From assembly GCF_003149045.1 (NCBI RefSeq), contig NZ_QGDU01000008.1, positions 1-64,000 of the forward strand: a DNA stretch of 64,000 nucleotides, read 5' to 3'. The stretch is from Fibrobacter sp. UWR4. GTDB taxonomy: Bacteria > Fibrobacterota > Fibrobacteria > Fibrobacterales > Fibrobacteraceae. The notes beneath the pieces are model-generated. The model was not told where the DNA came from. It searched no databases and worked only from the letters and a program-made list of their open reading frames with translations. The number at the start of each line of letters is the position of its first letter. Position 1 is the first letter of the stretch. Positions 27,176-36,069 of this stretch are shown here, piece after piece. The position numbers and the translations under genes are program-made.

Positions 27176-27388
27176 TTTTGTGGGTAAATACGAGCGAGCG
27201 GTTGTTTTTTACCCACAAAAATTTAGTTTGTATGTAGTGTAGGCTGCGCTGAAATAAAAAAAATGTGGGTAAAACATAGGGGGGGGGATTTGTTTTACCC
27301 ATAATTCCTGGGGTGGAGTGGGCGCTATTCCCCTTCAATTGGAATTTTTTGTGGGTAAAACAGAACGACTTCTTGGCATTTACCCACA
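27176..27388. repeat. Three inverted repeats of TGTGGGTAAA, about 85-bp period
   Basis: TGTGGGTAAA stands at 27179, 27264 and 27350, each paired with an inverse copy at 27208, 27292 (10 of 12 bases) and 27379. Loops are 16-19 bases. Unit starts are 85 and 86 bases apart, while the DNA between units is unrelated. A further half copy (TGGGTAAAAA) overlaps the start codon of the next gene at 27511. The units fill most of the 353-base gap 27157-27509, and no ORF is present there. They may be an operator array or structured RNA repeats. Confidence 0.8.
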
Positions 27389-27509
27389 TTTTTTCTGGAA
27401 ATAGCTTTTCTCCCCGGAAGCTGCCCGTTATGTCAACTACTGGTTGCAAAATGAATACTTGTCAAAATATTTTGTACTTTCGTTGATTTTTTCTTAGAAC
27501 TTTAGGTGC

Positions 27510-28388
27510 ATGGGTAAAAAACGCAATAATGAAGTCCTCCGCGAAGAAGAATTATCTGAAGAAGACATTGAAGGTTTGTCCCCAGATACAGTAGTACCTG
27601 CTGTCTCTAATCGGATTGTCCAACTTGAACGTCTGCTTGATAAAGTGACCCGCTCTCAGGTTCGGTTAAAGCGCGATGCACCGGTAGGAAGGCTTCGTGT
27701 GGACAAGTCGGGCAAATATGTTCGCTATTATCATATCCAGGAGAAAGGCGATACCCATGGAGTCTATATCCCTAAGAGCGGCTTGTCTTTTGCTCGGAAT
27801 CTTGCTCAACAAGAATACAATTCGAAAATATTGGGTGTTATTGAAAAACAATTACGGATTCTGCAGCGCCTTTCCAGGGAATATACTCCTGGGCAAATGG
27901 ATGAACCGCTAGAAAACTTAAATGCGGATAAACGACCATTGATTTTACCTGTTCAGTTATCCTGCGAAGATTTTGCTCAACGCTGGCTACGGAAAACCTA
28001 TGAACATAAATCCTTTGCCGAAAATGCGTTGGAGTATTATACTGCAGACGGGCTTAGGGTACGTTCAAAATCTGAAGTGATTATTGCGGATACGCTTTCC
28101 CGTATGGGTGTGCCTTTTAAATATGAGTGTCCCTGCAGAATCAAGGGGCTGGGTAAAATTCATCCGGATTTTACTTGCTTGAATCTTCGTACCCGAAAAA
28201 ATATTCTCTGGGAACATTTCGGTATGATGGATTCTCCGGATTACAGCGCTAGGGCGGTCGCTCGAATAAATAATTATGGGTCGTCGGGATATAACCTCGG
28301 TCTGAATCTTATTGCGACCTTTGAGACTGCATCGGATCCCCTAAGTGCCAAGACTGTAGTACGAATGATTGAACTGTACTTAAAATGA
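27510..28388 (+). CDS. PD-(D/E)XK nuclease-like protein, function unknown
   Basis: This 292-residue protein has a charged N-terminus, a helical middle containing a VGRLRVDKSGKYVRYYH module, and a C-terminal domain that fits a restriction-endonuclease-like fold. E189 is in VRSKSEVIIADTL, D220 in IHPDFT, and E235 in WEHFGM where ExK is usual, so the lysine is replaced. Related proteins occur in accessory regions of Firmicutes and other bacteria, with no known role. It stands alone, preceded by the striking inverted-repeat array, and converges with the next gene (4-base gap). A defence or mobile-element role is plausible but unproven. Confidence 0.68.
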   Translation: MGKKRNNEVLREEELSEEDIEGLSPDTVVPAVSNRIVQLERLLDKVTRSQVRLKRDAPVGRLRVDKSGKYVRYYHIQEKGDTHGVYIPKSGLSFARNLAQQEYNSKILGVIEKQLRILQRLSREYTPGQMDEPLENLNADKRPLILPVQLSCEDFAQRWLRKTYEHKSFAENALEYYTADGLRVRSKSEVIIADTLSRMGVPFKYECPCRIKGLGKIHPDFTCLNLRTRKNILWEHFGMMDSPDYSARAVARINNYGSSGYNLGLNLIATFETASDPLSAKTVVRMIELYLK

Positions 28389-28392
28389 CTCT

Positions 28393-29460
28393 CTAGAACT
28401 TGCGGGTGAACGTCATCATGATGACCTTCATGCCCCATTCGTGTCCCTTGCGGTTCTGCAGCAGTTCTTCTGTAGCTTCGTAATGGTATTTTTCGTAGGC
28501 TCGATCCCTGTTGAAGGCGGTGAGCAGCATTCCACTCCAGTCGTCGCTGATTTTTACGCTCAGCATGGGCATGATGCTGATAACCGTAAAGTACGGGTCG
28601 TAGCCATCGTAGACTTCGTCGAACTTTGTGGACCTGAAGAAATTGCTGGCGTTGACGTTGACCATCAGCATGGGGATCCGCTTGAAGGGCAATATGTAAA
28701 TGAGGGTTCCGCCATAGCGGTAACGCCAGCCGTTTGCCGAGTACTCGGAACCGCATTTCCAGATTTCGCCGTCGTCTGCATCTGTGTAAGCGGTATAGGT
28801 CCAGCTGACATTTGGACGGAGGATGATTTTTGTCCAGTCGTTTTTGGGAAGGAACGCGATGAGAGGGATGGTGGCCACTACCCGGAACTTTGCCCCGTAG
28901 GCAAAAGATGTTAGGAAGGTGTCTCCGTCAAAGTTGCCTTTTTCCGGATTGTACACCCCCATGAAGGTGGCGTAGTCTCCGTAATTGAAGGACGAGTGGA
29001 TATTTCCGGAAACACCCAGCTCCAGCAGGTGCATCAGCTCCAGGGCGGCGTCCAGATTGATACCCATGTCCATGATGCTGAGGTTTCCGTCGGCTAGCCC
29101 CTTGAGGGTGATGAACCTCCCGAAGTCCTTCTGTATGGTTCCGGTGGTGTTCCATGCCACAGGGAATGCTAGCGGGAAAAACGGCCAGTTATGCAGTTCC
29201 TTGGAGTTTTTTAGGGCCTTGTGCGTCAACGCGAATGCTGCCCAGGTAAAACTATGGTCCAGACGGATTTTAAGACTGGAGCTGTCGCCGGATGTATCTG
29301 CAATAGGGGGTGTACCTGTATTCTCCGGCGTTTTATTTACATCGCTGGCGGAAGCATCCTTAGGTGTCGCAAAAACAGATGTTGCACAGAATATGACCAG
29401 GAAAATTGAACCTAGCAGTTTTATCTGGAAACGTTTATTCCTGGACATTGGCTTCATCAT
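28393..29460 (-). CDS. Outer-membrane beta-barrel protein, hypothetical
   Basis: This is a 355-residue exported protein. The signal peptide includes LLGSIFLVIFCATSVFA and is followed by a low-complexity Ser/Thr/Pro linker (about 35-60). The remainder alternates polar and aromatic residues (FGRFITLKG, VSWTYTAYT, GWRYRYGGTLIYIL) and the protein ends in TFTRKF. A terminal Phe is the usual outer-membrane barrel signal. No family was recognised. There is no Shine-Dalgarno, and TAAATT lies 7 bases before the ATG. It could be a porin-like or structural envelope protein. Confidence 0.7.
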   Translation of the reverse strand: MMKPMSRNKRFQIKLLGSIFLVIFCATSVFATPKDASASDVNKTPENTGTPPIADTSGDSSSLKIRLDHSFTWAAFALTHKALKNSKELHNWPFFPLAFPVAWNTTGTIQKDFGRFITLKGLADGNLSIMDMGINLDAALELMHLLELGVSGNIHSSFNYGDYATFMGVYNPEKGNFDGDTFLTSFAYGAKFRVVATIPLIAFLPKNDWTKIILRPNVSWTYTAYTDADDGEIWKCGSEYSANGWRYRYGGTLIYILPFKRIPMLMVNVNASNFFRSTKFDEVYDGYDPYFTVISIMPMLSVKISDDWSGMLLTAFNRDRAYEKYHYEATEELLQNRKGHEWGMKVIMMTFTRKF

Positions 29461-30651: not shown

Positions 30652-31983
30652 CTAGTCCTGGATACAGCGGACTGAGTTGAAGTCGAATTTACCGCCTTCA
30701 CCAAGTTCGGCGTCCCCGAAGAGATGGTCTGAAATGATGAGAGTCGTCTTTTTTTCGCTGTACTCTGGAGTCATCACCCACATGACGGCGCGATCGTTAT
30801 ATTCCAGGAAGGTGGAGCCATCGATTTCCATGCCGCCGAAGTCAAGGATAGAACCAGACGGATAGGCGGTGAATCCATAGTCATCTTCATGGGTGTACTC
30901 GTCCCATCCTTCTGCGGACTTGAGAGTAAGTCTTGCTCTAAGAGCGAAGTCATCTACAAGATCCAGCAGCGGTTGCCACTCTTCGGCTGATGGCAGGTGC
31001 CAGCCGCTGGGGCAAACTTTTTCCGCATCGCTATAGGTGTAGAGCTGGCCGTACCTGTGGGGATTCTTTTCCTCGCCGGTGAGAGTTCTACTGGAATCTG
31101 TTTTATAATTCAGGTTTTCTCCCATCCATACCTGGTTCCCGATGACGATGGTTCTGTATGTTTGACCATCGCGGGAGTCCTTCATGGTCCCCTCGGTTTC
31201 CTTGATGCAACGAACCGGCAGACGGTAACTCTTGGAGGGAAGAGCGTACATATCGCTGAACAGGAAGGTTGGTGAACTGTTGGTTTTGTTCATCTCTACA
31301 GCGGCGGCGTGATTTTCATCCAGTTCTTCGCCGACCCAGAAATAAACGGAGTAATTCAGTCCACTCCAACCCTCTTCACCGAGGGTGTCTGTGCCTACGG
31401 TGTCAATGCCGGTAAAATGAGCGCCGAAGCCGTAAAGTCCAGCACCGTCCAGGCCTTTAGACGAAGTGAGGAAACCTGTGTATTCGTAATACCCGGCGCG
31501 CCAAGTTTCCTTGTCGATTAACTTCCAGTCCTTGCGGGTCGGCAAGCGCCAGCCTTCGGGGCAAGATTTCATCGCGCTTTCCCAGGTGTAGAATCGGCCG
31601 TAGTCTTCGCAGTTTTCGGGATTCCAGTAAATGCAGGTGCTTTCGCCGTCGTCGTAGTTCAGGTTTTCTGCCATCCACGACTGGGTGAATATATGGGCTA
31701 CTTTGTAAGTGCGACCGTCGCGGGAATCCACAAAGTGGTCGGGATCTACCGGTTCCTTGGCCTTGGAACTGGAGGAAACGCTTTCATCCAGAGAATTAAC
31801 AGTGCTGGAGCTGGAACTCTTAAGGGAATCTGCAGCGCTGGACAATTCATCGTCATGTATATCGGAACTGGAGACCGCTGTGTCGGAGTTGCCGTTGTCC
31901 GAAACCGGTGCGGAACTTGAGTTGTCGTCTCCGCAGGCTACGAGAAATAGAGTCGATGCAAGGAAAATAAGCCATCTGTTCAT
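30652..31983 (-). CDS. Lipoprotein with two FISUMP domains
   Basis: This is a 443-residue predicted surface lipoprotein. The lipobox is LVAC (Cys17), followed by a Ser-rich linker to about residue 80. Two FISUMP domains follow in tandem. The first (about 85-265) has DSRDGRTYK, WMAENLNYDD, YGRFYTWESA, CPEGWRLPT and LPVRCIKE. The second (about 270-443) has DSRDGQTYR, WMGENLNYK, YGQLYTYSDA, CPSGWHLPS and VRCIQD. The sequences differ enough that the duplication is old. Its role at the cell surface (fibre adhesion or binding) is speculative. Confidence 0.9.
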   Translation of the reverse strand: MNRWLIFLASTLFLVACGDDNSSSAPVSDNGNSDTAVSSSDIHDDELSSAADSLKSSSSSTVNSLDESVSSSSKAKEPVDPDHFVDSRDGRTYKVAHIFTQSWMAENLNYDDGESTCIYWNPENCEDYGRFYTWESAMKSCPEGWRLPTRKDWKLIDKETWRAGYYEYTGFLTSSKGLDGAGLYGFGAHFTGIDTVGTDTLGEEGWSGLNYSVYFWVGEELDENHAAAVEMNKTNSSPTFLFSDMYALPSKSYRLPVRCIKETEGTMKDSRDGQTYRTIVIGNQVWMGENLNYKTDSSRTLTGEEKNPHRYGQLYTYSDAEKVCPSGWHLPSAEEWQPLLDLVDDFALRARLTLKSAEGWDEYTHEDDYGFTAYPSGSILDFGGMEIDGSTFLEYNDRAVMWVMTPEYSEKKTTLIISDHLFGDAELGEGGKFDFNSVRCIQD

Positions 31984-34498: not shown

Positions 34499-35458
34499 AT
34501 GGTCAGGATGGTAAAAACAATTGTTTTCGCAGCGATAATCGCCATGTCTATGGCGTGGTCCGAACCTGACCCCAATTTCCATATTTACATCGCTTACGGT
34601 CAATCCAATATGGAAGGTGCCGCAAATGCCGAAGACGGCGATCTGGTGGAACATCCCCGATTCAAGCTGATAGCTTCCCAGGTTTGTGACCGACATCATC
34701 GTGATACAATTGGTGCGGTATATCCTGCCATTCCGGGGCTATCCGGTTGTGGTAACGGAATTTCCATTGCGGACTGGTTTGGCCGTACCATGGCGGATAG
34801 CACGCCGAAGGTGACCATCGGTATCGTGAGTGTGGCGGTGGGTGGCGCCTCCATTAAGTTGTTCGATAAGGATCAGTACGCAGATTATATTCCTACCGAG
34901 GATTGGGATTTTCAGAGGCGCGTAAAGTTGTATGCAGAGGATGGAAACATCCCGCAGCTTTTGGTTGATTTGGGAAAGAAGGCAAAGGAATTGGGCGTCA
35001 TCAAGGGTTTTATTTTCCATCAGGGCGAAACGGACAACATTGATCCCGAATGGCTGGAGACGGTGCGTAAGACTCGCTTTGATCTTTTGGAGGCCTTGGA
35101 TTTAAGTGCCGATACGGTTCCCTTTGTGGCGGGACAGTTGCTGCGTAGTGGCTCTGTTTATCCTGGCCAGGTTGACCGATTGCCCCGCATTATGGAAAAT
35201 ACTTACGTGGTTTCTTCCGAAGGATTGGGCGGGAAGGATAACTTCCATTTCACTCATGATTCCTACGTTGAGTTTGGCAAGCGCTATGCGCAGAAAATGC
35301 TGGAGACTCAAATGCCTGAGCCTCCTACAAAGATTTATGCCCGGAAAGAAACAGCCCGTCATCCAAGGAAAGTGGGTGCCGGACGTGCCTACGATTTGAT
35401 TGGCCGTCTGTTGACTGGTAATCAAAAATCCAATTCACATATTTGGCGTTTTAAATGA
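34499..35458 (+). CDS. Secreted carbohydrate esterase (CE6/SASA type)
   Basis: This is a predicted acetyl (xylan) esterase that removes acetyl groups from hemicellulose. The start is uncertain: ATGs at 34499 and 34508 both give a signal peptide (VKTIVFAAIIAMSMAWS). The 319-residue form has GQSNMEG at 34-40 with catalytic Ser36, HQGETDN in the middle, and a late FHFTHDSYVEFGKRYA segment carrying the catalytic His. A basic tail follows (ARKETARHPRKVGAG). Its stop overlaps the start of a FISUMP gene (ATGA), so the two are coupled and may act together at the cell surface. Family CE6 is preferred, but other SASA esterases are possible. Confidence 0.82.
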   Translation: MVRMVKTIVFAAIIAMSMAWSEPDPNFHIYIAYGQSNMEGAANAEDGDLVEHPRFKLIASQVCDRHHRDTIGAVYPAIPGLSGCGNGISIADWFGRTMADSTPKVTIGIVSVAVGGASIKLFDKDQYADYIPTEDWDFQRRVKLYAEDGNIPQLLVDLGKKAKELGVIKGFIFHQGETDNIDPEWLETVRKTRFDLLEALDLSADTVPFVAGQLLRSGSVYPGQVDRLPRIMENTYVVSSEGLGGKDNFHFTHDSYVEFGKRYAQKMLETQMPEPPTKIYARKETARHPRKVGAGRAYDLIGRLLTGNQKSNSHIWRFK

Positions 35459-36069
35459 GCTGTAGAATTTTTTTATTCCTCTGCATGATGTGTCTGCCTG
35501 TAATGGCGCAGGTCCTGAAGGACCCGCGTGACAATCAGGAATATAGGACTGTGCAAATCGGGACGCAGACCTGGATGGCGGAAAATTTGAGCTATGAAAC
35601 TGAAGGGAGCTTTTGCTATACCCGCTTTGGTTATGACTGCCGTAAGTATGGTCGCTTTTATTCCTGGGATGTGGCGAAGGATGTTTGCCCTGTGGGATGG
35701 CACCTGCCTACTGCCGAGGAATTTGACCAGCTTTTTGCTGCGGTGGGCGGTCGTGACTCCGCGGGCATCAAGTTGAAATCTTCCGATGGCTGGAGCCATT
35801 ATGGAAATGGCAGCGACGAGTTTGGGTTTAATGCGACGCCCTCGGGTTTCCGCGATTACCGCGGCCGCTTCGATCGCCAGACCATGTATGCGTACCTCTG
35901 GAGTGCAACGGATGCCGCCGAACTGTCTACGGATGAGGCTGCGGCAAGCGCAGGACCTAGCAAAAAGGCTGTGGGCGTTCACATGATGGCTGGCCGCAAG
36001 GATGTTTCCGTTTATCCTTACGCTAAAGACTTTGGGCTGTCTGTGAGATGCGTGAAAGACGGAAAATGA
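35455..36069 (+). CDS. Secreted FISUMP-domain protein
   Basis: This 204-residue protein is essentially a single FISUMP domain behind a signal peptide (MSCRIFLFLCMMCLPVMA, cut before QVLK). Unlike the other FISUMP proteins here it has no lipobox Cys and no Ser linker, so it should be released or held by another route. The domain shows DPRDNQEYRT, WMAENLSYE, YGRFYSWDVA, CPVGWHLPTAEE, FGFNATPSGF and a final VRCVKDG. The four-base overlap with the upstream esterase suggests the two are made in fixed ratio. Confidence 0.88.
   Translation: MSCRIFLFLCMMCLPVMAQVLKDPRDNQEYRTVQIGTQTWMAENLSYETEGSFCYTRFGYDCRKYGRFYSWDVAKDVCPVGWHLPTAEEFDQLFAAVGGRDSAGIKLKSSDGWSHYGNGSDEFGFNATPSGFRDYRGRFDRQTMYAYLWSATDAAELSTDEAAASAGPSKKAVGVHMMAGRKDVSVYPYAKDFGLSVRCVKDGK

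Follow-up and report, generated by a model that had tools for sequence, protein, structure and literature searches.

Phased arrays of inverted repeats beside genes of a PD-(D/E)XK-like protein family in Fibrobacter and other gut bacteria

The closest described system is that of the RAYT proteins and their REPIN repeats. Each RAYT has its own REP sequence, which is found beside the gene and in extragenic inverted pairs; these repeats are more numerous in the genomes which have the gene (PMC3116915, PMC8049555). The locus which we describe here has a similar organization: its unit is a variable spacer flanked by two conserved arms in inverted orientation, and there is one repeat sequence per gene, present at the gene side and dispersed in extragenic regions. 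However, its nature is different in several respects. The protein has a predicted PD-(D/E)XK-like fold, whereas RAYT is an HUH Y1 tyrosine transposase (IS200/IS605-like). The arrays contain 2–8 units placed at whole helical turns, with tens of units per genome instead of hundreds. The loops have 17–20 nt and are not conserved, and the hairpin is not maintained by compensatory changes (0/18). With an unrelated protein, phased units and no sign of arm pairing, the system is therefore not classed as a member of RAYT-REPIN.

Other known systems share some of these features. MITEs and miniature elements such as Correia, ERIC and RUP are also short intergenic homologous copies without genes, apparently dependent on a protein encoded elsewhere; in our case the conserved part consists of internal phased dyads, whereas terminal inverted repeats or a target duplication are not recognised. 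The candidate defence family PDC-S68 (PADLOC) has a homologous C-terminal PD-(D/E)XK-like domain, but its proteins have about 1200 aa with other N-terminal domains. Phased operator and centromere arrays, such as HipB operators and parC iterons, are also repeated sites on one face beside the gene of their binder. They differ from our arrays, which have a candidate binder with a predicted nuclease fold, are found upstream, downstream or dispersed as copied blocks, and have arms specific for each paralogue. Rpn proteins (YhgA-like, PF04754) are paralogous PD-(D/E)XK proteins too, common in the same genomes; however, they show no sequence match to the protein studied here, and cognate repeat arrays are not known for them. 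CRISPR arrays, with identical direct repeats, spacers of foreign origin and cas genes, are different: here we have inverted arms of 10–11 bp, and in orthologous arrays the spacers evolve like the flanks. No cas genes were noticed among the ORFs listed around the window array. In Pfam, NCBIfam, PHROG, Rfam and open-access papers we found no family or paper which describes the system, nor did we find an open-access paper on Fibrobacter dispersed repeats of this type or on PDC-S68. Apparently it is an undescribed two-part system, a nuclease-like gene with its own address plus phased arrays, which gut bacteria from three or more phyla possess.

The array and its gene in the window

The window is a stretch of 64,000 nucleotides from Fibrobacter sp. 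UWR4 (contig C8), whose genome has 3.6 Mb and is 99.99% complete. The features of interest are given in Table 1. A three-unit array upstream of the gene starting at 27510 is confirmed. An earlier note on this DNA had described six alternating copies of one sequence: six inverted arms are indeed present, but only five of them are exact TGTGGGTAAA, the sixth one (27294–27303, minus strand) being TATGGGTAAA. The units start 85 and 86 bp apart, as the note had said; their loops have 19, 20 and 19 nt, and each unit is separated from the next by exactly 46 bp. Unit 2 is the only one with a loop of 20 nt, which contains a run of nine G; its extra base may be due to homopolymer slippage or to an assembly effect. 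When one mismatch is allowed we find 11 arm matches in the window, six of them packed into 210 bp. The expected number is 3.8 ± 1.8, and none of 100 shuffles reaches 11.

A seventh half copy over the start codon had also been reported. It does exist, but it is probably due to chance, since a half-site in this position is found in just 3 of 83 comparable loci; we have rejected it as a component of the system. The scan of the array region for sigma-70 promoters and terminators found nothing, and the Rfam search of the same region gave no match near the gathering score.

Table 1. Position of the array, the gene and related features in the window
Feature	Position	Strand	Description
Dyad unit 1	27179–27217	.	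TGTGGGTAAA-N19-TTTACCCACA; complementary arms reach 27176–27220
Dyad unit 2	27264–27303	.	TGTGGGTAAA-N20-TTTACCCATA; loop with nine-G run 27279–27287
Dyad unit 3	27350–27388	.	TGTGGGTAAA-N19-TTTACCCACA
Half-site-like ATGGGTAAAA	27510–27519	+	Covers the start codon; probably chance
Cognate gene, 292 aa	27510–28388	+	Predicted helix, beta-hairpin and long helix, then PD-(D/E)XK-like C-terminal domain; candidate array binder
Whole array and gene module	27176–28388	+	Between M48 gene (end 27156) and convergent gene 28393–29460 (–)

The 27510 protein has no match in Pfam, NCBIfam or PHROG, and a search of the PDB with its sequence gave nothing. Its residues 166–288 match the C-terminus of PDC-S68 (E = 8e-24), a match which is limited to the final ~125 positions in the profile of this much longer family. 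Long frames of the PDC-S68 type (up to ~1300 codons), with the same C-terminal domain, are found in nine viral-contig loci (L258–L266), with no arrays nearby. The AlphaFold2 model, obtained from 70 relatives, has a mean pLDDT of 93.5. It predicts a helix (28–56), a beta-hairpin and strand (61–87), a long helix (89–124) and a C-terminal domain with PD-(D/E)XK topology. A fold search of the PDB gave similarity at the domain level only, with the nuclease domains of DrdV and Bax1 (E 0.03–1). The motif residues are SKSE189, PD220F and E235H, together with K252. E189 and E235 do not vary among the relatives, at least 90% of which have D220. The usual lysine of the motif is replaced, E235 being followed by H236; the conserved K252 in the next helix could be its catalytic substitute. 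According to the model, the protein has the fold of the PD-(D/E)XK nuclease superfamily and its acidic catalytic residues, and cleavage of DNA by the predicted nuclease domain is plausible.

In the same window, the lipoprotein-like proteins at 30652–31983 and 35455–36069 have repeated paralogous domains with MAENLNY/MAENLSY, a motif of the Fibrobacter major paralogous proteins.

According to the earlier note, arms scattered at random in the genome would refute its proposal. A search of the 3.6 Mb with the pattern TRTGGGTAAA-N19-TTTACCCAYA, in which the 20 arm bases could differ at no more than 3 positions, gives instead the three window units, three units of a second array, A2 (C60:3525–3733), and one degenerate match. 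The units of A2 start at C60:3525, 3610 and 3695, with loops 19/19/19, gaps 46/46 and period 85/85. It follows the mdh terminator and precedes the gene of a dcuC-like transporter: the mdh-dcuC gap has 361 bp with A2, whereas it has 156–174 bp in three species without the array (G040, G032 and G034). On the 10-kb contig of A2 we detected no gene related to that at 27510. The loops and spacers of A2 are unrelated to those of the window array and the spacing is equal, which points to a constraint on geometry. An A/G change between the two arrays A1 and A2 (TATGGG/TGTGGG) was considered as compensatory pairing and rejected: the cases are too few, and the larger GTACCTATAAA set described below shows none.

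Gene-specific arms and helical phasing

We have studied 80 genomes of the genus, one per species, many of them metagenome assemblies. Relatives of the 27510 protein are found in 49 of them, with up to eight matched places each. Arrays were searched as similar inverted repeats up to 260 bp apart, with no preference for spacing and with eight exactly complementary bases required. They are found at 73 of the 110 homologue loci of the genus. As controls we used 59 loci around dcuC and M48 genes (247 kb); one of them gave an array, an AT-rich false match. When relatives from Treponema, Lachnospiraceae, Butyrivibrio and Clostridiaceae are added, an array lies at ~1 kb or less from the gene in 98 of 162 distinct loci, although these loci are often related by descent and the counts are not independent. 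The remaining ~40% have no detected array; the exact-arm filter misses some degenerate ones, such as that of L008, which is visible on inspection, and other loci may be truly without array. Its sequence relatives in Fibrobacter, Treponema and Clostridia make the gene a member of a large accessory family with a predicted PD-(D/E)XK domain. The link with the restriction-fold gene proposed in the earlier note is thus upheld by the cognate arrays beside its homologues, whereas we only infer that the gene product is the binder.

The arms are uniform within one array and different from locus to locus. For example, there are eight units of TTACGGACGAAA with a period of 95 bp in Treponema (L206) and seven units of TACCGGCAAAA with a period of 74–75 bp in Clostridiaceae (L180). 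Most gene-side arrays are upstream, 100–600 bp from the start codon. In one subfamily, with arms TGGCGGTGAAAT, the array comes straight after the stop codon, and in L131, L140 and L152 the gene is flanked by arrays on both sides. The content between paired arrays can vary: when L225 (3971–6760) and L218 are compared, one of the two species has an extra opposite-strand ORF of 454 aa between the gene and the downstream array, which the other lacks.

Since every gene has its own arm sequence, the window arms are absent from related species. This is the result of the search for the 13-bp arms which the earlier note had advised: they are present in 0 of 79 related Fibrobacter genomes. Such a search would therefore falsely refute the finding, and the window arms TTTTGTGGGTAAA were rejected as a signature of the family. 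Distances between arms and between proteins are correlated (Mantel r 0.44, p = 0.001), which also follows from shared descent. Covariation of protein and arms singles out neither the beta-hairpin nor any domain as the reader (p = 0.19). The N-terminus and beta-hairpin, suggested by the raw top covariation pairs, were discarded, since the enrichment disappeared after removal of gappy columns and entropy correction.

When the units are aligned on their dyad, conservation is limited to positions –20 to –10, with an identity between units of 0.65–0.95 and ~0.3 elsewhere; the earlier note was right in stating that arms are conserved while loops and spacers are not. A unit has two inverted half-sites of about 11 bp; from one core to the other there are about 30–31 bp, or three helical turns, and the centre of the unit is not conserved. 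The distances from dyad to dyad range from 53 to 242 bp: 53, 63–64, 73–75, 84–86, 93–97, 104–106.5, 137, 147, 189, 200, 211 etc. The best period is 10.50 bp (R = 0.916, 124 intervals). It is maintained when a single interval is taken for each arm family (n = 47; R = 0.907, p = 1.6e-17), in agreement with the proposal of the earlier note that binding occurs on one face of DNA. This spacing places every half-site on one side of the double helix. Multiples of 10.5 bp indicate therefore that the arrays act as double-stranded DNA read from one helix face: this is a requirement of proteins on one face of B-DNA, and RNA would need none.

Dispersed arrays and conservation of half-sites

Arms of some genes are also found as further arrays in the genomes. 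Those with GTACCTATAAA arms are present in 10 of 80 genomes, with 39 units in G066, 18 in G069 and 14 in G054. When two mismatches are allowed, 17 of the 18 units in G069 are still exact. Arrays with TTACATACT arms are present in 19 of 80 genomes (30 units in G017), including 11/11 of those whose gene carries TTACATACT. Controls with the reversed patterns of both arms gave 0 matches. A Treponema genome has 20 units over four loci. In the window genome a second paralogue (arms AAGGACTAAA) is matched by 13 units, four of which are found between convergent genes on contig C21 (G000:C21, L380 1447–1640) with the shortest period observed, 52–53 bp or five turns. Most dispersed arrays are found in genomes with the cognate gene, and some in genomes where a cognate gene was not detected. 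The loci inspected in detail are intergenic, beside unrelated housekeeping genes, and some lie between convergent genes, as it happens in L287, L289 and the C21 and C7 arrays of the window genome.

The dispersed GTACCTATAAA arrays have 70–80% mutual identity over about 265–300 bp, in either orientation, and the similarity ends near the ends of the array. We had considered their loops as unrelated, which was wrong: they are diverged copies. A convergent pair of genes, RluD-like and helicase, has a ~450-bp block with array in G054 and G066. In the other 29 species compared closely the same pair has no array and gaps down to 30–60 bp; a later search found the array in G069 too, a relative of G066. 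The window module shows a similar variation. In species G030 and G037 the M48 gene adjoins the counterpart of the 28393 gene, without the array and without the 27510 gene, while in G032 and G034 there is a module after the M48 gene with arms TTTGTAGGCTAAA, different from those of the window. Being present or absent after M48, array and gene are thus a unit of gain and loss. No clean empty-site junction, terminal repeats or target duplication were found at the array insertions; the copies are bounded at the array ends. In the arm family studied most closely, the comparison of these sequences shows homologous array copies which were inserted into intergenic regions. Most dispersed arrays are old, common to several species. 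In two species a protein is found about 1.5 kb from one dispersed array (L297 4755–5756; L298 274–1266), which by eye we take to be similar to the Rpn recombination-promoting nucleases.

Five dispersed arrays are common to G066 and G054. Their half-sites are 92.6% identical, versus 77.5% for loops, 78.7% for spacers and 78.1% for flanks (p ~ 1e-8): half-sites change about three times less than the rest. This points to purifying selection in the shared arrays, where half-sites alone are kept in place. All the deviating units (18/18) have changed on one side only, which argues for half-sites read independently and against hairpins. Genome G017 keeps GTACCTATAAA arrays, while all its homologues have other arms. 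Intact units number 3 of 9 there, and 49 of 61 in the gene-bearing genomes (p = 0.007).

A proposed mechanism and its alternatives

We consider it fairly probable that the window array is the gene-side copy of a set of cognate sites, and that the 27510 protein cooperatively binds its own phased arrays, in an organization which resembles RAYT-REPIN although the protein is unrelated. That the protein binds and cuts DNA and that the arrays spread is inferred. The protein is the candidate reader because the arms are gene-specific: a shared host factor would not vary with the paralogue. It would bind as a dimer to each unit, neighbouring dimers cooperating on one face, and its nuclease-fold domain would be placed near the non-conserved centre of the unit. 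Binding at dispersed arrays would matter to the cell or to the element, so that half-sites would be kept intact. Nuclease activity may help, or may once have helped, to copy arrays to new sites. Array and gene together would serve as the master copy, on which the solo copies, among them A2 upstream of dcuC, would depend. The divergence of arms between paralogues would prevent cross-reaction of the networks in one genome. The chances appear evenly balanced for a wider proposal: an undescribed class of chromosomal elements, widespread in Fibrobacterota, Spirochaetota and Bacillota, whose PD-(D/E)XK protein recognises an 11-bp address of its own and both spreads and maintains arrays of phased dyads over the chromosome, diverged addresses allowing several independent networks per genome.

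Another possibility is that the nuclease-fold protein moves the arrays as miniature mobile elements, neutral or in decay, which are selfish and have no function for the cell. Such elements would explain copies which are similar across the array and not beyond it, insertions in intergenic regions and a patchy, paralogous gene. However, in the arrays shared by two species only the half-sites resist change, which is unexpected for dead copies; the arrays are mostly old and shared, and terminal repeats or target duplications are not seen. We find this explanation unlikely.

An array of operators for autoregulation only, with the protein repressing or activating its own promoter and the dispersed arrays as an ordinary regulon, would fit the upstream position of most gene-side arrays and that of A2, which has the mdh terminator on one side and the dcuC-like gene on the other. 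Arrays directly after the stop codon or on both sides of the gene speak against a plain promoter operator, and so do the dispersed arrays between convergent genes, whose neighbours are unrelated housekeeping genes: a purely regulatory role seems improbable. Slightly more doubtful still is a module of defence or addiction, in which the arrays would hold a potentially toxic nuclease on the chromosome, released when the chromosome is lost or attacked. The similarity of the C-terminal domain with PDC-S68, the strong retention of half-sites and the patchy, paralogous distribution are in its favour, but the proteins similar to PDC-S68 are about 1200 aa long and have no arrays.

Finally, the repeated RNA element suggested in the earlier note is very improbable, and so is any other element acting as RNA or as a single-strand hairpin, be it a regulatory RNA, a terminator or a REP-type hairpin which is processed as ssDNA. 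The array region has a strong RNA fold (z = –5.2), but this is expected from inverted repeats of any kind; in REPINs, two inverted REPs form a hairpin with a variable spacer between them (PMC3116915). However, the helical phasing over 53–242 bp, the non-conserved loops, the one-sided changes of half-sites, the lack of an Rfam match and the presence of arrays upstream, downstream and far from the gene contradict it.

Under the proposal of a protein which binds its own phased arrays, the many genes with their addresses provide naturally matched specificities of protein and DNA, and from the strict helical phasing a definite higher-order structure of protein and DNA is predicted. If it is true, the combination of a nuclease gene with dispersed palindromes would have been invented a second time, independently of RAYT-REPIN, with an unrelated protein which works on double-stranded DNA, and the question of why bacteria retain such repeats would become testable with a different enzyme.
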